Assembly (NCBI GenBank): GCA_000496135.1
Contig: KI542676.1
Location: forward strand, 1 to 64,000
Direction of reading: 5' to 3'
DNA length: 64,000 nucleotides
DNA from: Thermoplasmatales archaeon E-plasma
GTDB lineage: Archaea > Thermoplasmatota > Thermoplasmata > Thermoplasmatales > Thermoplasmataceae
Shown here: piece by piece, positions 26,449-53,070 of the stretch
How positions within the stretch are numbered: position 1 is the stretch's first letter
How the letters are laid out: the number at the start of each line of letters is the position of its first letter
Notes under the pieces: generated by a model
Database searches by the model: none
Seen by the model: only the letters and a program-made list of their open reading frames with translations
Told to the model about the DNA's origin: nothing
Made by a program: the position numbers and the translations under genes

Positions 26449-26587
26449 ATTCCCGTATGCAAAACCGATTAAAAGAGTTATAGAAATCTCGAATTTCACA
26501 GATAAGGAAATTAAATTCTATCCTGTGAATCAATTCCCGCAGATAAATGGTTAAATTTTTATTGCTTCTTACTCTATGGCGTTTGAT

Positions 26588-26660
26588 GGGGCTGTGGGGT
26601 AGCTTGGTATCCTACGGGCTTTGGGAGCCTGAGACTCCGGTCCAAATCCGGGCAGCCCCA
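26588..26660 (+). tRNA. tRNA-Pro (TGG anticodon)
   Basis: This is a complete cloverleaf with acceptor stem GGGGCTG/CAGCCCC, an anticodon loop TTTGGGA on a CGGGC/GCCTG stem (one G:U pair), and T-loop TCCAAAT. The discriminator is A (26660); no CCA or intron is encoded. A TATA-like AT-rich stretch lies 26-37 bases upstream. The AT-rich AbiV-like gene lies just downstream. Confidence 0.96.
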
Positions 26661-26843
26661 TTTCATAATTGGGGATATTCATAAGGAGGAAAAAGTACCG
26701 CTTTTTATATTCGATTTCAAAAAATTTAATTGGTCTTACTAAACTTTAAGCAACCTTAAAAGAAATATTCTGGTGTTTATGTTTTCCCAATTTCATTGGT
26801 AAATAGTTTCTAAAAATGGAAAAACCAAGTTCAAGAGAAAATG

Positions 26844-27551
26844 CTACCTTCTTGAAGTGGGTACAATTTTCTTTATTACATTGAAAATTTCATTATCTTT
26901 TTGAACCAATTTGTATAAATCAGTATGATTTGACCCATCGTCCATTATGATTTTGATACTAAATATATTAAAGACACACAACCAAGCCAATAGACTATAA
27001 TCGTATGACAAGGCTGGAGGGACCAATCCATCTTTACTCTTTGCGACATAGAACGCAGTTTCTTTTATTTTTGGAATTTTCTTTGCATCTATCTTTGTGA
27101 TTGATTCCATCCATTTTAACAAGTTATCTAATGTATCTGGATTGTTTGAAGCATTAGTTATTTTTGGGTCCACTCTTCCCTTTACATATCTATATTCTGG
27201 AATATTGGCAAACCCGCACTTTACTGTACTCTCAATAATAGAAGGTGAAGGGACTTTATTCCGCATTTGTGTGATTATAACTTTGGTTAATTCTTGCATT
27301 TCCCCAATCTTTACATCATGGATTTCAAATTCTTTATCTATCTTTTCGTTGTAATCAACCTTCTCTAAACCTGGAAATATTCTTTCTGGATTGATCGCAA
27401 AAAAAACCCACCAGGCTTTTGTCATTTCCTCGGCAGATAATTCGAGAATTCCGTATCTTATAGGTGGTTGTAATCTGTTAAAGGCAACCTTGAAAAGATT
27501 CATAGAATTGTCAACGCAAACTTTGACATCCTTTTGACCATATTTAGTCAT
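26844..27551 (-). CDS. AbiV-like (HEPN) abortive-infection protein
   Basis: This soluble protein of about 235 residues starts MTKYGQKDVKVCVDNSMNLF; a GTG at 27566 is an alternative. The first 60 residues, especially DNSMNLFKVAFNRLQPPIRY then LELSAEEMTKAWWVFF, fit the AbiV/HEPN pattern (helix, small-residue turn, then a conserved EE-x2-KA helix). Lactococcal AbiV blocks phage translation late in infection; a defence role here is inference. The gene is markedly AT-rich (two sampled 60-base lines each have only 16 G/C, against about 24 in core genes) and lies beside tRNA-Pro, both signs of transfer. A GAGG site precedes the chosen ATG. The assignment is by pattern only and needs a profile search. 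Confidence 0.6.
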   Translation of the reverse strand: MTKYGQKDVKVCVDNSMNLFKVAFNRLQPPIRYGILELSAEEMTKAWWVFFAINPERIFPGLEKVDYNEKIDKEFEIHDVKIGEMQELTKVIITQMRNKVPSPSIIESTVKCGFANIPEYRYVKGRVDPKITNASNNPDTLDNLLKWMESITKIDAKKIPKIKETAFYVAKSKDGLVPPALSYDYSLLAWLCVFNIFSIKIIMDDGSNHTDLYKLVQKDNEIFNVIKKIVPTSRR

Positions 27552-28105
27552 TAGATTCCTCTGCACTTTCTAATGATTATATGTATAAATATCTATAGAT
27601 AGTGCATGAACAAGTCATTGTAATATATTGAATATCAAATATATACAATAGGGTAAATAAAGAAGATAAAAAAAGTTGTGATTTTTAAAAATAACTATAT
27701 TGATCGAAGAATATTATTTATTGAGATTTAGGTTAAAGCTGAGATGACATGCCCCAATTAGATCAATTGTAAAAGCTCGTAAATGCTAGAAATTTACAGG
27801 GGTTTGTATGGATATAACGGTAGATGTTTTATATGATTAAATTTTCTAACCTTTGTGCTATTTATTAAAAACAGTTTTAACAGAATTTTAACAACCTTAA
27901 ACTTTGGATTTAAATGATTTTCAGTCTTTATCTTTATTTCGATTTTACAGAATTTATTCTTGATTCTCCTAATTAACAATTTTGCTGGCTTTTTGCAAGG
28001 AACTGATTCATAGTTTTATTTTCGTTCTATAGATCTATATAAAATTTAAGAAAGATAAATTTTCAAACTTAGATATAACCCATTAAAACTACATTGAGAA
28101 GGTCT
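27552..28105. other. Very AT-rich intergenic region, no gene seen
   Basis: About 550 bases with many A/T tracts separate the AbiV-like gene from the Dam-type gene. A 61-codon minus-strand frame here is lysine/isoleucine-rich with no domain, and looks like chance in AT-rich DNA. The right part may hold the 3' end of the methyltransferase transcript. No att-like copy of the tRNA-Pro 3' end was found. Confidence 0.5.
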
Positions 28106-28921
28106 TCAATAATTTGTTATTAAAACCTCATTTATTTTACCCCTTCCCTTACCGTTGGAGTTAATATTTCTAGCTGCCAGTATGTTAGATATTTTAAAAT
28201 CAGAGTATAGTTCCCTTATTAAGGGAGAGTCTGAATTGCTAATCATTAAGAACACACCTGAAGAAGAGGCATCCCTGAATATCTTTGCCAGTCTTCTCTG
28301 CTCTTTCTCTCCAAATCCTCCTGAACTGTATGACGTAAAAGAAGACGTTTCTGAGATTGGCTGATACGGCGGATCAAGATATACAAAATCCCCTTCTCTT
28401 GCCTCTCTGATCGAATTCTCAAAATCGCAGCATTTTAAATCCACATTTTTAAGTGATCCGGATACCTCCATTATTTGTTCTTTGCCTGGAATAACTGGAT
28501 TATTATATCTTCCAAAGGGAACATTGAATTTACCTGAAAAATTTACTCTATAAAGACCATTGAAGCAGTGTCTGTTAAGATAGATCATCAGGGCGGCCTT
28601 CCTGACCGGTAAAGGATCTGAATTAAACTCCTCCCGTGCTCTATTGAAATCTTCTCTGTTGTTTCCGTAATCTATATCCCCAAGGGATTCTATGAGTTGG
28701 CCCGGCTTGTCTCTTATTATGGTATACAATGAAATGAGGTCAGAATTAACATCGGAAAGAACTGCACCGGTAATAAGGTTCCTGCTCCTCAGTTCGAAGA
28801 ACATTGCACCGCCTCCAACGAATGGTTCCACATATCTATTGAAGTTATCCGGAATTCTTTCAATCATGGAAGGAAGCAGTTTTCTCTTGCCTCCAGCCCA
28901 TTTTAACATTGGAGATAACAC
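28106..28921 (-). CDS. DNA adenine N6-methyltransferase, Dam/D12 class
   Basis: This 271-residue methyltransferase has the FxGxG-type SAM motif at the N terminus (LKWAGGKRK, then EPFVGGGAMFF, about residues 33-42) and the catalytic DPPY at 183-186 (YLDPPYQP). NRHCFNGLYRVNFSGKFNVP is the characteristic Dam/DpnM substrate region. Dam-class enzymes usually methylate GATC; specificity here is not proven. The start is GTG 28921, supported by a CTTTTAAATC box about 25 bases upstream. No restriction endonuclease is adjacent, so it may act alone or as protection against incoming systems. Confidence 0.92.
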   Translation of the reverse strand: MLSPMLKWAGGKRKLLPSMIERIPDNFNRYVEPFVGGGAMFFELRSRNLITGAVLSDVNSDLISLYTIIRDKPGQLIESLGDIDYGNNREDFNRAREEFNSDPLPVRKAALMIYLNRHCFNGLYRVNFSGKFNVPFGRYNNPVIPGKEQIMEVSGSLKNVDLKCCDFENSIREAREGDFVYLDPPYQPISETSSFTSYSSGGFGEKEQRRLAKIFRDASSSGVFLMISNSDSPLIRELYSDFKISNILAARNINSNGKGRGKINEVLITNY

Positions 28922-28968
28922 AGGAAGGCATCAGAAAAAGGATTTAAAAGATTTTGAATTGATGCTAG

Positions 28969-29997
28969 TTATTTCTTCCTTATTCTTTTTACTGCGCTGT
29001 TCTGAAAAATAAATATGTATTCATGCTTGAATATGTAGAATCCACCGGCCAATGAACGATATCTCCACAAATTCTCCTGATTTCTCTTACCTCTTGTGGA
29101 GTCATAATTCTTTACCACAATACTTTTCAAGGTCAATCCCTCTTCCATTGCTGCATTCATGGCCAGAAATCCAAGCGGTTCAAGCTTTGAGTCCGAGTAT
29201 TTGTCGCCTATGACAATTGCCAGAATCCCATCAGGACGGAGAACAAGCTTTGAGTTCATGATTACTTTCCTTAAGGAAGCTATAAAGCTGACAGTATCAG
29301 GGGTATTGGAAAGATCCAGGCTGTCCCCGGAAAACTTTATGATATCATGATAGGGCGGATGAAGAATGGCCAGTTGAAACCCTGTAAAATCATTTTTTCC
29401 AGTCAATTGGGAGAAATCAGAGGATGTGCTGTCTGCGCATTCTACAATCATTTGCACATCTTCACTGGACTTTTGGGAATCGATTCTTTCCTTTGCCCTG
29501 GTTACAATATCCATATTGAGATCAATGCCCATCCCATTTCTGCCCTGCATCTTACATTCAATCAGTGTTGTTCCGCTTCCCATAAACGGGTCAAGAACCC
29601 AGTCGCTTTTCCTGGTATATCTCAATATTAGCTGTCGGGGTATCTGTGGCACAAAGTTACCCCAGTACCATCCCAGATGATTTCCGCTTCGATCTCTTTT
29701 ATCAAAATTCCAAAGACTGTCAGTAAGGATATCATTATAATCCATCCACCGGTTCAGATTTATATCATTCACACCATTTGTCTTTACTGAGGTTACACTG
29801 TCCATCAGGCGATCCAGATAGTATTTTGCCCTCTCTATCCCGTTACTCTGGAGGATTTTCTCCACAAAGTATCCATTGTCAGCAAAAAATATGGCATTTC
29901 CGGCAACTTCTTCCTTTATCTCATCAAGGTTCTGAAGGGATAATATCTCTCTAACAATATGTTCTAAGTTCCCTGCTTCAGTTTTTTCTCTATTCAT
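28969..29997 (-). CDS. DNA N4/N6 methyltransferase with HPPY catalytic motif
   Basis: This 342-residue enzyme resembles the N6_N4 MTase family. It has an N-terminal helical region of about 85 residues, then GWYWGNFVPQIPRQLILRYT, the SAM-binding LDPFMGSGTTLIE (about 135-147), GMGIDLN, and a catalytic LHPPYHDIIKFS (HPPY at 213-216) in place of DPPY/SPPY. There is a C-terminal RRNQ-like loop and a final hydrophobic strand, YIFIF. Motif IV with histidine is uncommon. The gene overlaps the end of the zinc-ribbon membrane gene by four bases (ATGA), so they are co-translated. No cognate nuclease is visible. Confidence 0.87.
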   Translation of the reverse strand: MNREKTEAGNLEHIVREILSLQNLDEIKEEVAGNAIFFADNGYFVEKILQSNGIERAKYYLDRLMDSVTSVKTNGVNDINLNRWMDYNDILTDSLWNFDKRDRSGNHLGWYWGNFVPQIPRQLILRYTRKSDWVLDPFMGSGTTLIECKMQGRNGMGIDLNMDIVTRAKERIDSQKSSEDVQMIVECADSTSSDFSQLTGKNDFTGFQLAILHPPYHDIIKFSGDSLDLSNTPDTVSFIASLRKVIMNSKLVLRPDGILAIVIGDKYSDSKLEPLGFLAMNAAMEEGLTLKSIVVKNYDSTRGKRNQENLWRYRSLAGGFYIFKHEYIFIFQNSAVKRIRKK

Positions 29998-30668
29998 TGT
30001 GTCTGTGACCCGGTAGGAGAATCATTTGATGGCGCGGGAGGAATCTTTTCCTTAAACCATGTTTCCAGAGTGATGTTTTTAGAGCGTAATCTGTAGTTTG
30101 GAAAACTCATCCTTCTGCCATCTTTCAACTTTATTATAAGAGCCTGGGTCCCTCTCGTTCCTGTTACGGGATTCACTCCTTCAACATCTGAATAGTCGAA
30201 GGAAAGATCAAGAGCGCCTTTCCTGGTTCTAAAACCATTTTCATAAATATACAGCCTTCCTGCACTGGCTCTTTTTCCCAGTGAGATCCCAATGAGGACG
30301 ATATAAATTAGAAGATATGGAAGATAGCCTGTTAAGTATGAGTCATTCCCGGTTGTTATGGTAATGTAAATTGGATAGCCCATCACCACCAGAAGTATGG
30401 CAACCATTCCTATGAGACTTGGCAACATTCTGGAACCGAATTCTCCAACGGGCACCTCGCCAGTGAAAGCATCACCCTTTACTGGCGCTTCCATGGAAGG
30501 TTTTTGAGCAGTAGCAGGTGCAGGAGACGATACCTGTTCGCTGGTTGAACTTCCCTGCAGAGTACCTCCGGGAGTTGCACCCGTCTCAAAATCATATCCG
30601 CAACTTAAGCACTTCTTTGCCCTTTTTGTATTTGGATAACCACATGAAGGGCAGATCTTATTTGCCAT
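29994..30668 (-). CDS. Zinc-ribbon membrane protein with C-terminal beta-rich (PH-like) domain
   Basis: This 224-residue protein has an N-terminal zinc ribbon (CPSCGY...CLSCGY, about residues 6-25), a Ser/Thr/Pro/Gly-rich linker (30-75), and two membrane helices (about 83-105 and 115-131). A cytoplasmic beta-rich domain follows (LYIYENGFRTRKGALDLSFDYSDV...IIKLKDGRRMSF), similar to bacterial PH-like domains, and the tail is polar. It is the promoter-proximal gene of a two-gene unit with the HPPY methyltransferase. A TTTATAATG box 26 bases upstream of the ATG suggests a leaderless transcript. Function unknown; a membrane sensor is possible. Confidence 0.7.
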   Translation of the reverse strand: MANKICPSCGYPNTKRAKKCLSCGYDFETGATPGGTLQGSSTSEQVSSPAPATAQKPSMEAPVKGDAFTGEVPVGEFGSRMLPSLIGMVAILLVVMGYPIYITITTGNDSYLTGYLPYLLIYIVLIGISLGKRASAGRLYIYENGFRTRKGALDLSFDYSDVEGVNPVTGTRGTQALIIKLKDGRRMSFPNYRLRSKNITLETWFKEKIPPAPSNDSPTGSQTQ

Positions 30669-49301: not shown

Positions 49302-49736
49302 TTAAAACTCATCATCAGATTTCTTCCTACCCAGGATTGCTCCTCCGATAAAACCTCCTATTCCGGGAATAACTAACCCGTCGGCAATAGCTTTGCCCAT
49401 AAAGTTATAGAGATTTGCAGTAAGCATTCCTCTTACATAACCTGATTCGGCAAGGACACCCCTGGTAACAAGAGAATTACCAGTATACGTTGTCAAAAGA
49501 GTTACAAATGAAGCATTTGGAATTATGTACAGAGCAAACTCTATGGCTATGGTGATCACAACACCTGCTCCAATGAGCGCAGATACCAGTCCTCGTAACT
49601 TGCCGCGAGCTATTAACCCTCCAAAAATTCCCGGTATAATCCACCCTATGAGTGGGAAGTACCCCATGACCGCAAGGCTGGCTATTGTGGCAATAATACC
49701 AAAGCCTACACTTCCGGTTGATTCTTCATCTGCCAT
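49302..49736 (-). CDS. Glycine-rich multi-helix membrane protein (DUF5518-like)
   Basis: The protein of about 144 residues starts at ATG 49736 (MADEESTGSVGFG), because a TTTAATATATA box is centred 25 bases upstream; longer in-frame starts (49781, 49742) are disfavoured. It has about four membrane segments with regularly spaced glycines (IIPGIFGGLIARGKL, SALIGAGVVITIAI, IPGIGGFIGGAILG) and a charged C terminus. The composition resembles small archaeal DUF5518-type membrane proteins of unknown function; that assignment is tentative. It is divergent from the kinase gene. Confidence 0.65.
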   Translation of the reverse strand: MADEESTGSVGFGIIATIASLAVMGYFPLIGWIIPGIFGGLIARGKLRGLVSALIGAGVVITIAIEFALYIIPNASFVTLLTTYTGNSLVTRGVLAESGYVRGMLTANLYNFMGKAIADGLVIPGIGGFIGGAILGRKKSDDEF

Positions 49737-49878
49737 TTGCATAATAACGCACTGGTATATATTAAACTTCTTTGCGTCCATCCCTAAGAAAGTGTATTCT
49801 CGTTTTACAGGAAATAGAAATTAAAATCTATGGGAAGTCTTATATTTTTTAAAATATAGCCTTAGTAAACCGGTATCA

Positions 49879-51210
49879 ATGATCAAAGGTAAAAAAAAGT
49901 CAAGCAGAGGAAGAACCCTTTCTAATAAGAAAAAGAAGACCATAGATGATATTATCTTTGAAATACAGAAGGTAGAAAACATATATCTGGGCGAAAAAAA
50001 TCAGATTCACGTTAAGGTTTCCCCGGAGAAATATATCAAGCTGGTGGAAGCTACCATCACAGATCCACTTCTAAGGCAGATGATAATAAAACCAAAGAAA
50101 ATTTCAAAGGGTAATTTCGAACTCAGATTTAAACCAAAAGAGACAGGCAAATATTCAATTTCTTTCTATGCAAGGACAAAGCAAAAGAAGTTTAAAAGAG
50201 AAGAAATAGGTGTCAACTCAATTATAAGAGAAAAAACAGTTGAAACAAGCACTTCAAGTATGGCTGCTGAAACTTACAATATTGACTTTTCCAAGATAAA
50301 GAAGAGAACCTGGCCATCATCCTCTGCCTACTCCATAGCTCTCCAAAATCCTAAACAAAATATTGCAGAGTCCTATGAGATAATCAGAAATGGAACTTTT
50401 GAGAAGAATCCCATGGTGAAATACCCAACCCTGATTTTTGGTTCAGGAAATTTTGGAACGGTGTTCAAGGTAAAAACAGACGGAGGAATCTATGCAATTA
50501 AATGTTTTACCAGGGGCTCCCCTGATCTTGAGATCCGATATATGGCCATTAGCAGCTTTCTCAAGGCTAAGAAATTACCTTTTTTTACTGAATTCAACTA
50601 TATGGATAATGCAGTGAGAGTAATGGGAAAAAAAGAGACTTATTTTCCCATACTTATGATGTCGTGGGTTACCGGGGAAAATATGAATCAGTACATTAAG
50701 AGAAACTTAAACAATCCAAACGCTCTTACTGTCACAGCAAAAAGTCTTTTAAAATCTGTTCAGGAAATGGTAAAGAGCAATATTGCCCATGGAGATCTAT
50801 CAGGGGATAATATACTAGTCAGGGAAAATGGAGAAATCAATCTAATAGATTATGACGGTATGTATGTACCGGCTATATCAAGCCTTGGAGCCAGTGAAGC
50901 AGGCCATGAAGCATTTCAGCACCCTAAGAGGATGACAGAATTCAATGAAAGGCTTGACTATTTTTCATGCCTTCTGATTTATGTTACGCTTCTGGCATTA
51001 TCAAAAAAGCCCGAACTCTGGCAATTTAACGACGGAGACGGGGATAAACTCATAATATCTGGAGATGACCTGAATGATCCATCGCATTCACAGGTTCTCA
51101 AAGAAATGTTGAAAATTGGAGGTAAAGTAAAAACTTTGACAAACCTTCTTATCAAAAGTCTATCAAAGGAAAGCGGATGGGAACAGATTTCTCCACTCTT
51201 AATTTCTTAA
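49879..51210 (+). CDS. Protein kinase of a TerY-P-like triad, with N-terminal beta-rich domain
   Basis: In this 443-residue protein, residues 1-20 are very basic. Residues 25-112 alternate short strands (IHVKVSPEKYIKL, FELRFKPKETGKYSISFYAR) and look like an immunoglobulin-type fold. Residues 185-440 form a Ser/Thr-like kinase: glycine loop GSGNFGTVF (188-196), K208 (YAIK), catalytic HGDLSGDN (304-311, so D306 and N311, with G replacing R of HRD), and DYDG (324-327) in place of DFG. HRD-to-HGD and DYDG patterns occur in TerY-P-type kinases. The stop is five bases from that of the convergent PP2C gene. It probably phosphorylates partners opposed by that phosphatase. Confidence 0.85.
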   Translation: MIKGKKKSSRGRTLSNKKKKTIDDIIFEIQKVENIYLGEKNQIHVKVSPEKYIKLVEATITDPLLRQMIIKPKKISKGNFELRFKPKETGKYSISFYARTKQKKFKREEIGVNSIIREKTVETSTSSMAAETYNIDFSKIKKRTWPSSSAYSIALQNPKQNIAESYEIIRNGTFEKNPMVKYPTLIFGSGNFGTVFKVKTDGGIYAIKCFTRGSPDLEIRYMAISSFLKAKKLPFFTEFNYMDNAVRVMGKKETYFPILMMSWVTGENMNQYIKRNLNNPNALTVTAKSLLKSVQEMVKSNIAHGDLSGDNILVRENGEINLIDYDGMYVPAISSLGASEAGHEAFQHPKRMTEFNERLDYFSCLLIYVTLLALSKKPELWQFNDGDGDKLIISGDDLNDPSHSQVLKEMLKIGGKVKTLTNLLIKSLSKESGWEQISPLLIS

Positions 51211-51215
51211 CAGTA

Positions 51216-51938
51216 TTATACTTCTATTGTTATTATTGAAATGTCATCGTTCTTCATTTCGCCATTGATCCTGAGAGTGTCCCAATAGGATTGTTCCGGG
51301 TTAAGAAAGCTGGAAAGTTCATCAATTCTCCTTGCCCCTCCCTCCATAATCCACTTTGAGGCTGCGTCAGAAGCAAGTAAAATCTTACTCCCCGGTTCAA
51401 CTGTATAATTCTTCATTTCGTAGTCTGGTATTTCGAGGGGCGAATCATCGAAGATTGGTTCACCATGGCCACTCCAGAGCAGATCCGGGTGGAGACCGAA
51501 GCCTGACACATCCTTTATGGGAAAGCTCTCCAGCCGCTTGTTTGTTCTTATGAATGCGCAACTGTCTCCCACGGCTATACAACTCACTCTGTAATTCTTC
51601 TCAGTTTTCTTTATTTCCATGCCAATGAATGTGGCATATGAACCTAATACGGATTTATTTTTTACATTCCATTTAAGGTTGTTCCATTCTATTTTGTCAT
51701 GCCACAGGTTAATGGAGTTTCTATAAATCTTATTGATTATTTCATCCGGATTCCCCGTTAGATTTCCGTACTGTGAAAAAGTATCAACTAGGCACCGTGC
51801 CCACAAACCAGAAAATACAGAGTCGCTGGCACCATCTGAAACCGCAAATCTCATATTCTGCTCATCAGCCATGAGATAATCTTCGCATTCATTTTGTGTA
51901 TTTCCAACTTTTGGAAATATTATGGATTGTCTTTTCAT
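51216..51938 (-). CDS. PP2C-like Ser/Thr phosphatase of a TerY-P-like triad
   Basis: This 240-residue protein has metal-binding motifs of PP2C phosphatases: ECEDYLMADE (E19/D20), FAVSDGASDSVFSGLWA (D35, G36), ILLASDAASKWI, and the C-terminal NDDISIITIEV. FSGLWA in the second motif is typical of the TerY-P-associated branch. It is translationally coupled to the vWA gene (four-base overlap) and convergent with the kinase. It is likely to reverse the kinase's phosphorylation of the vWA protein or another target. Confidence 0.85.
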   Translation of the reverse strand: MKRQSIIFPKVGNTQNECEDYLMADEQNMRFAVSDGASDSVFSGLWARCLVDTFSQYGNLTGNPDEIINKIYRNSINLWHDKIEWNNLKWNVKNKSVLGSYATFIGMEIKKTEKNYRVSCIAVGDSCAFIRTNKRLESFPIKDVSGFGLHPDLLWSGHGEPIFDDSPLEIPDYEMKNYTVEPGSKILLASDAASKWIMEGGARRIDELSSFLNPEQSYWDTLRINGEMKNDDISIITIEV

Positions 51939-52753
51939 TTCACTCTGCTATATGCAACCCTCGTACCAATATCCAGTAACTTGATAAGATCTTCCAGTCT
52001 CGCATTAAAAACATATGCTCTTGCTCCTTCTGATACATCCTGATATTCTTCTCTTGCAATGGCCAGCATTGAATCCGGGAGCATAGTAGATATATTGAAC
52101 ATGGTCGAGGCATATTTTTCCTGTGGAAGTTTGGATTCATTTTCTGGAAAAGAAACTGGCGGGGCTGAAGACTCAGACAGGTGGCAGTTCCAGAGCATGG
52201 TTTTTCCATCCTTTGTTGAAAGTTCTGTAAGCTCCCTTGATATATCGGTGGGCGATCCGTCTGTAGATTCTCCGTCACTGATATTTATTACTACGGGAGG
52301 ATAGGAGTATTGATGCTCCTGAACCCATTTTTCTACCCATTCTTTTGCAAGTTTTAAGGCTGATACCATTGGGGTATCGCTTGCAGCAACGGGTTCAAAC
52401 CACACTGGATATTGAAATTCAACCTCCTGATCATCTACTTTTTCTTTTCTTGTTTCCATTTTCTTGATTACATTTTCCATTTCGGTTATGGGAATTGGAG
52501 CATCCGATATCAGACCGGCTGCGCCAGATCTTTCGAATCCATATCCTATTACACCCAGGTCAAAATAGTGCCTTACTCCTTCAGATTTCGTGCATCTGTT
52601 TATTAGCTCAGCAATTTGTTTGTTAATAGCGTCAGTTGCCTCTACTGCCTTGGATCTTTCGCCACCTGACAGCTTATGGCTCATTGATCTGGACTGATCG
52701 AGCAAAAACAAAAATAAACCGGGGTTCCTTCTACTTATTTCAGCTTCGTACAT
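51935..52753 (-). CDS. TerY-like von Willebrand factor A domain protein
   Basis: In this 272-residue vWA protein the metal-ion-dependent adhesion site is intact: DQSRSMS (D19, S21, S23), a threonine in ASDTPMVSAL, and the aspartate in VINISDGESTDG. It starts directly at the domain with no signal peptide, so it is cytoplasmic. VVINISDGESTDGSP and the strand FLFLLDQSRS are close to the TerY type. It is the first gene of the unit with PP2C. In bacteria TerY, PP2C and kinase form a triad linked to phage, stress and tellurite-resistance modules; no other ter genes are visible here. Confidence 0.85.
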   Translation of the reverse strand: MYEAEISRRNPGLFLFLLDQSRSMSHKLSGGERSKAVEATDAINKQIAELINRCTKSEGVRHYFDLGVIGYGFERSGAAGLISDAPIPITEMENVIKKMETRKEKVDDQEVEFQYPVWFEPVAASDTPMVSALKLAKEWVEKWVQEHQYSYPPVVINISDGESTDGSPTDISRELTELSTKDGKTMLWNCHLSESSAPPVSFPENESKLPQEKYASTMFNISTMLPDSMLAIAREEYQDVSEGARAYVFNARLEDLIKLLDIGTRVAYSRVK

Positions 52754-53070
52754 AATTTCCTAAGACTATAGTGTTTAAAACCTTTTTTATTAATTACATG
52801 CCTGTTTGATCCGTTATTTGTGACAACTTGTTCTTTTGATATCTTTCCATTGTAAATGTGCAATGCGCACTTAAATTCTTAATGCGCCAAAGGTCTTTTC
52901 CGCCAATAAGAACTACCCTTTCTCTGTACATACAGCGAGAGAAAGTAACACTGTGAATAGATATAGCAAAAATTGTGGTTTAAACCAGAAGAAATGGAAA
53001 CATTGTTTCAAAACGTTGAGCCTTTCATTTTGAAGATAGTCACATTTATGCCCTTAAAGTAATCTCAGCC
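52754..53070. other. Divergent intergenic region, no gene seen
   Basis: About 317 AT-rich bases lie between the vWA gene and the permease. A short inverted repeat (GTGC-AATGC-GCAC, near 52857-52869) and a TATA-like ACATTTATG about 26 bases before GTG 53071 are the only elements I notice. The minus-strand promoter of the vWA-PP2C unit must also lie here. Confidence 0.45.

Follow-up and report, generated by a model that had tools for sequence, protein, structure and literature searches.

An archaeal branch of the TerY-P kinase, phosphatase and vWA triad with an inverted kinase gene, probably kept as a stand-alone signalling switch

Introduction

Three adjoining genes of Thermoplasmatales archaeon E-plasma, encoding a Hanks-type Ser/Thr kinase, a PP2C phosphatase and a TerY-like vWA protein, probably represent an archaeal branch of the TerY-P triad. 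One Thermoplasmatales-type family would have gained this branch in a single event, at or close to its base, and retained it as a core signalling switch that stands alone, with the kinase acting on the vWA protein or a complex and the PP2C resetting it. The genes lie within the window, the 64,000-nucleotide stretch of contig KI542676.1 (assembly GCA_000496135.1) that was analyzed. The protein families and the triad are already known, and all three parts are covered by PADLOC. The inverted, convergent gene layout, the relocated input domain with its three-way exchange, and the inheritance of the triad as a core-like feature of an archaeal family are new as far as the literature searched shows, leaving aside any archaeal members that the 2012 founding paper may list.

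In bacteria, TerY-P triads have been described in stress and defence loci. Here the triad has been kept alone, with no conserved effector adjoining it, across the full depth of an archaeal family; it therefore offers a minimal switch that is directly testable. More broadly, a module usually filed as defence resembles ordinary core signalling, which calls for caution in the automatic defence annotation of archaeal genomes.

Organization of the triad

ORF calling places three intact genes at positions 49879-52753. The kinase gene (49879..51210, plus strand) encodes 443 aa, with intact active-site motifs and a core at approximately residues 145-443. It converges on the PP2C/PPM phosphatase gene (51216..51938, minus strand; 240 aa, metal ligands all intact) across a tail-to-tail gap of 5 bp (51211..51215); in relatives with intact genes, the two overlap or lie no more than 12 bp apart. 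The TerY-like vWA gene (51935..52753, minus strand) encodes 272 aa with a complete MIDAS (DxSxS...T...D), and its stop overlaps the PP2C start by 4 bp in an ATGA (51935..51938, minus strand), which likely couples the translation of the two genes. The original prediction, made from the DNA letters without database searches, had described the three genes as encoded together, and its ORFs, coordinates, 4-bp overlap and 5-bp convergent gap proved accurate.

Candidate promoter elements were identified by eye. A TATA-like A/T element (tattttttaaaatatag; 49844..49860, plus strand) stands 19-35 bp upstream of the kinase start, at a position that fits leaderless transcription, and another TATA-like element (ggttttaaac; 52773..52782, minus strand) stands 20-29 bp upstream of the vWA start. 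By the same inspection, a AAATTTATT-like element recurs at about the same distance upstream of the vWA gene in many relatives, and TATA-like elements at approximately -20 to -35 of the vWA or kinase start are found in many relatives as well as in the window. Given these elements before both starts, the kinase and vWA-PP2C transcripts are probably separate and leaderless.

Family assignment and active sites

Pfam matches the proteins to the kinase (Pkinase, 1.7e-12), PP2C (PP2C_2, 5e-5, slightly below the cut-off) and vWA (VWA, 0.005) families. The PADLOC TerY-P models match all three (STK_OB, 4.3e-64; PP2C, 2.7e-25; TerY, 9.1e-77), bearing out the proposal of a TerY-P-type triad. The STK_OB match covers positions 2-276 of the 562 in the profile, that is, the kinase half only, and the kinase thus has no OB fold. 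It also has no zinc ribbon, since it contains two Cys residues and no CxxC; its C-terminal end lies 140 aa past HGD. Because the C-terminal OB fold or zinc ribbon is also missing from some bacterial TerY-P kinases, this absence marks a variant and does not exclude the protein from TerY-P. A sequence search of solved structures returned none for the vWA protein and only generic kinases for the kinase.

All three active sites are conserved. Among relatives with the same N-terminal type, kinase residues K208, HGD (304-306; D306), N311 and DYDG (324-327; D324) are invariant. Across the family, the same is true of PP2C residues E19, D20, D35, G36, D125, D191, D231 and D232, and of the vWA MIDAS residues D19-S21-S23, T127 and D160. 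The window kinase carries HGDLSGDN and DYDG, motifs that had been put forward as a peculiarity, replacing HRDL and DFG. They are present as described, yet they are hallmarks of the whole family rather than an archaeal oddity: among the relatives analyzed, which are the best 80 of 496 database matches, the scored kinases have DYDG in 42/42 cases from archaea and 29/29 from bacteria (71/71), and HGD in 42/42 and 28/29, respectively (70/71).

Inverted kinase gene and relocated kinase core

Gene order separates the archaeal loci from their bacterial relatives. Among the best 80 of 496 matches, all 31 bacterial loci with a kinase have the vWA, PP2C and kinase genes in one direction (T>P>K>), whereas all 46 archaeal loci with a kinase have it inverted and convergent (T>P><K), a layout seen in 0/31 bacterial loci. 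Judged by these gene orders, only the archaeal branch shows the inversion and convergence. With one locus taken per genus, the gap between the kinase and PP2C genes ranges from -23 to +11 bp in 13/13 genera. A gap of 12 bp or less is thus found in every genus for the triad but in only 8 of 26 other convergent pairs, drawn from the same loci as background (Fisher p = 2.6e-5). In three of the 46 archaeal loci (L058, L093 and L098), the gap is not meaningful because the kinase ORF is broken, fused or fragmentary. The first of these, from Thermogymnomonas acidicola, has its kinase split into two ORFs of 82 and 252 aa, by a frameshift or a sequencing error.

The domain order of the kinase differs as well. 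In 31/31 bacterial kinases, the core lies at or near the N-terminus; wherever a contig end does not truncate the locus, the core is followed by a C-terminal extension of approximately 80-550 aa, of TM, zinc-ribbon, OB or another type. In the 46 archaeal loci, the core is C-terminal, behind an N-terminal extension of approximately 110-290 aa. The motif WPxxxxYxxAxQ, which opens the bacterial kinases, stands directly after the extension in the archaeal ones, and this placement indicates that the extension was added ahead of the ancestral start.

The N-terminal input domain

In the window kinase, the N-terminal input domain (49957..50220, plus strand) is predicted to be an Ig/filamin/C2-like beta-sandwich. 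The AlphaFold2 model places seven strands at residues ~27-114 with pLDDT mostly 77-85 (moderate confidence), and Pfam gives weak Filamin and Ig matches. Across the archaeal kinases, the extensions fall into three classes: a soluble beta-sandwich, a PH-like domain and a multi-TM region. For example, a modelled member of the PH-like class (L065) has seven strands, a C-terminal helix and a Pro-rich linker, and the class gives weak Pfam matches to bPH_3, GRAM and PH_TFIIH. The multi-TM class, found in Thermoplasma and others, has 2-6 hydrophobic segments. Fold searches for partners of these domains, run with whole models, returned kinase domains in such numbers that no usable match emerged; the top matches of the window model, to PKC-beta, are no evidence at an rmsd of 17-23 Å.

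The three classes track the vWA tree. Within the window's genus, the N-terminal domain diverges fastest, with 46% identity; the vWA protein has 85%, the kinase core 77% and PP2C 70%. The N-terminal domain is exchangeable among the archaeal kinases, and we infer that it is the sensor.

Distribution and descent

Of 117 genomes from the order, 54 encode the vWA protein, and every one of these belongs to the same family as the window. Among 390 genomes drawn from across the phylum, it is found in 22 family members and two others of the class. Among the sampled family genomes, it is present in 22/22 outside three genera and in 0/11 inside those, the 11 being the listed members that lack it. These three genera form one clade on the rpoB tree, so that a single loss suffices to explain all absences.

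The prediction's check on adjacency, whether homologues co-occur in related genomes, came out in its favour. The trio has the same order and orientation in 21/21 genomes examined, the window included, and in 46/46 archaeal loci among the best 80 of 496 matches. No neighbour around the trio is common to all genera in the 21 genomes; the flanks switch from genus to genus while the trio stays the same, and the linkage is therefore not due to chance. The distances of the kinase core, PP2C and vWA protein co-vary (r 0.79-0.85), which partly reflects shared phylogeny.

In a vWA tree of the best 80 of 496 database matches plus the window, the Thermoplasmata fall on one side of a branch with an SH-aLRT of 99. 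The vWA protein of a contig assigned to Thermoproteota (L100) groups with bacteria. A GC-rich class member (G448; L193:3293-6645) has the bacterial-type co-directional order T>P>K> and an N-terminal kinase core, and its triad adjoins a 1655-aa ORF. The rpoB backbone has weak support, and the distribution of N-terminal classes needs 7 changes against a minimum of 4, which leaves room for some transfer within the family. Overall, inheritance looks vertical, with one loss, as far as these trees and presences can tell.

The carriers appear to include two complete genomes, which we take to be Thermoplasma acidophilum DSM 1728 and T. volcanium GSS1. In the latter, G101, PP2C-type genes lie at 570.6 and 708.3 kb. 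Going by its gene number, the T. volcanium PPM phosphatase published by Dahche in 2009 is probably the product of the other locus and not of the triad's, and it was therefore set aside as evidence.

Genomic context and alternative functions

The window neighbours of the triad encode a transporter, a thiolase, acyl-CoA dehydrogenases, a permease, an aldehyde dehydrogenase, an isocitrate dehydrogenase and an adenylosuccinate synthetase. A look for phage or stress genes beside homologues had been suggested; the flanks in 13 genera are mostly metabolic or housekeeping. Few of the 121 neighbours in these genera are PADLOC-like, and these are scattered, with 1-2 members each of a methylase, a UvrD-type helicase, QueC and a mad-like protein among the matches listed. 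A larger defence island is thus ruled out for the window, by its metabolic neighbours, and for the 13 genera. The original prediction had seen no other Ter proteins. TerD and TerB were found nowhere in eight whole genomes, and no TerB, TerC, TerD or ATP-grasp gene is among the window's neighbours; such genes often accompany TerY-P triads, although a stand-alone triad does not need them. Neither an effector gene nor metal-handling genes are conserved beside the triad. No phage or viral contig with the triad was found; relatives on plasmids are limited to two cyanobacterial ones.

Several further features were observed in these genomes. Between an acyl-CoA dehydrogenase gene and the kinase gene, the window encodes a small hydrophobic protein (49302-49781; 159 aa, no Pfam match), which is confined to the genus in the fetched loci. 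Elsewhere in the window, a tRNA-Pro precedes a stretch of low GC (0.34 at 26-28 kb), two adjoining DNA methylase genes (D12 class and N6/N4 type) and a zinc-ribbon protein, together a possible integrated island (26587-30668). A 429-aa protein with no Pfam match, recombinase-like by eye (140-1429), adjoins tRNA-Ala (1479-1550) and is a possible tRNA-linked integrase. At L194:1157-5053 of the window's own genome (G000:C3, ~669-673 kb), a Hanks kinase with a C-terminal FHA domain adjoins an AAA-TPR protein (864 aa). In G073, a PP2C paralogue approximately 6.5 kb from the triad (L190:8350-9081) has lost its metal ligands; by sequence it is a pseudo-phosphatase, which may possibly regulate the switch.

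An anti-virus role such as Gao et al. (2020) tested for TerY-P would have the kinase sense infection, with the vWA protein and PP2C setting a threshold for growth arrest. PADLOC places all three proteins in TerY-P, and bacterial TerY-P modules are reported to act alone against T7-like phages (PMC7699616, PMC11090510) and to partner CoCoNuT restriction systems (PMC11090510). These reports leave some room for a defence role here. The input domain is also the fastest to diverge (46% identity within the window's genus, compared with 70-85% for the other parts), although ordinary sensing would lead to this as well. However, the triad is nearly universal with one clade-wide loss rather than patchy, few PADLOC-type matches occur among its neighbours, viral contigs and phages lack it, and its kinase has neither OB fold nor zinc ribbon. 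Consequently, we consider defence unlikely. The earlier suggestion of a stand-alone archaeal signalling or defence switch thus holds for its stand-alone character, whereas defence is unsupported by the metabolic neighbours, the absence of viral carriage and the vertical inheritance.

These archaea inhabit metal-rich acid waters, which counts in favour of a metal-stress switch of the tellurite type, like that put forward for bacterial Ter systems, in which the vWA MIDAS would sense a divalent metal and the kinase would relay the signal. The MIDAS is complete and invariant, and metal sensing is a published hypothesis for TerY-P, attributed to Anantharaman et al. (2012) in PMC11090510. Against this improbable role stand the genome-wide absence of TerD and TerB in the eight genomes and the lack of conserved adjoining metal-handling genes. 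Lastly, that three unrelated genes are chance neighbours in a compact genome is hardly credible: convergent pairs need no shared promoter and short gaps are not rare (8/26 other pairs at 12 bp or less), but adjacency is conserved, with trio and orientation kept in 46/46 loci (best 80 of 496) of many genera while all other neighbours change, and with the short kinase-PP2C gap in 13/13 genera, which refutes the idea.

Proposed mechanism

In the core signalling switch that we favour, the N-terminal domain, a soluble beta-sandwich here and a PH-like or multi-TM domain in relatives, would sense a signal. The kinase would then phosphorylate the TerY-like vWA protein, or a complex for which the vWA metal site serves as scaffold. 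Phosphorylation would alter the binding partners of the vWA protein, and the co-made PP2C would reset it. That the three proteins act on each other is suggested by their linkage and by the Arn precedent: there, ArnC phosphorylates the vWA protein ArnB, PP2A removes the phosphate, and these reactions drive the assembly and dissociation of ArnA/B (PMC7472852, PMC12852372). We also infer that the kinase has the vWA protein as its substrate and that the switch works on a cellular target in trans.

A more speculative extension, which we consider rather unlikely, concerns the layout. Inverting the kinase gene against the phosphatase gene and placing the sensor at the N-terminus instead of the C-terminus may have turned a once-captured bacterial conflict or stress module into a core switch. 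The tail-to-tail, often overlapping genes would couple both enzymes through complementary 3' mRNA ends, with the kinase/phosphatase ratio set by antisense pairing or polymerase collision. Antisense coupling in particular is no more than a possibility.

Comparison with known systems

The closest described system is the TerY-P triad (PADLOC PDLC02222-02224; Anantharaman et al., 2012; Gao et al., 2020), with which the archaeal genes share the three families, the HGDL and DYDG motifs, adjacency and a TerY-type vWA protein with a MIDAS. In contrast to that triad, the archaeal kinase gene is inverted and convergent, and its product has a C-terminal core, no C-terminal OB fold or zinc ribbon, and an N-terminal beta-sandwich, PH-like or TM domain. 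The archaeal genes also show chromosomal, core-like inheritance, with no Ter or restriction partners. CoCoNuT systems of types II and III-A frequently bear a TerY-P triad; however, the genes that define them, for an McrB-type GTPase, a helicase and a nuclease, are not seen beside the triad here.

The Sulfolobus ArnA-ArnB-ArnC/ArnD-PP2A switch likewise combines an archaeal vWA protein, a Hanks kinase and a resetting Ser/Thr phosphatase. Its vWA protein is of the ArnB_C type, its phosphatase is a PPP enzyme and it has an FHA partner, whereas the triad has a PP2C, and Pfam finds no ArnB_C domain in the triad's vWA protein. The window's own genome contains a separate, co-directional Arn-like cluster (L195:12912-17887; G000:C3, ~700.9-705.9 kb) that encodes an ArnB_C vWA protein, a zinc-ribbon-FHA protein, a PPP metallophosphatase and a large kinase.

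The nearest sequence relatives among the best 80 of 496 matches are stand-alone vWA-PP2C-kinase operons of Streptomyces, Chloroflexota, Planctomycetota and Verrucomicrobiota, with vWA proteins 42-48% identical. They differ from the archaeal triad in their T>P>K> order (31/31 in this set) and in an extension, often TM, that follows the kinase core. What they share with it is the WPxxxxYxxAxQ motif, with which their kinases start.
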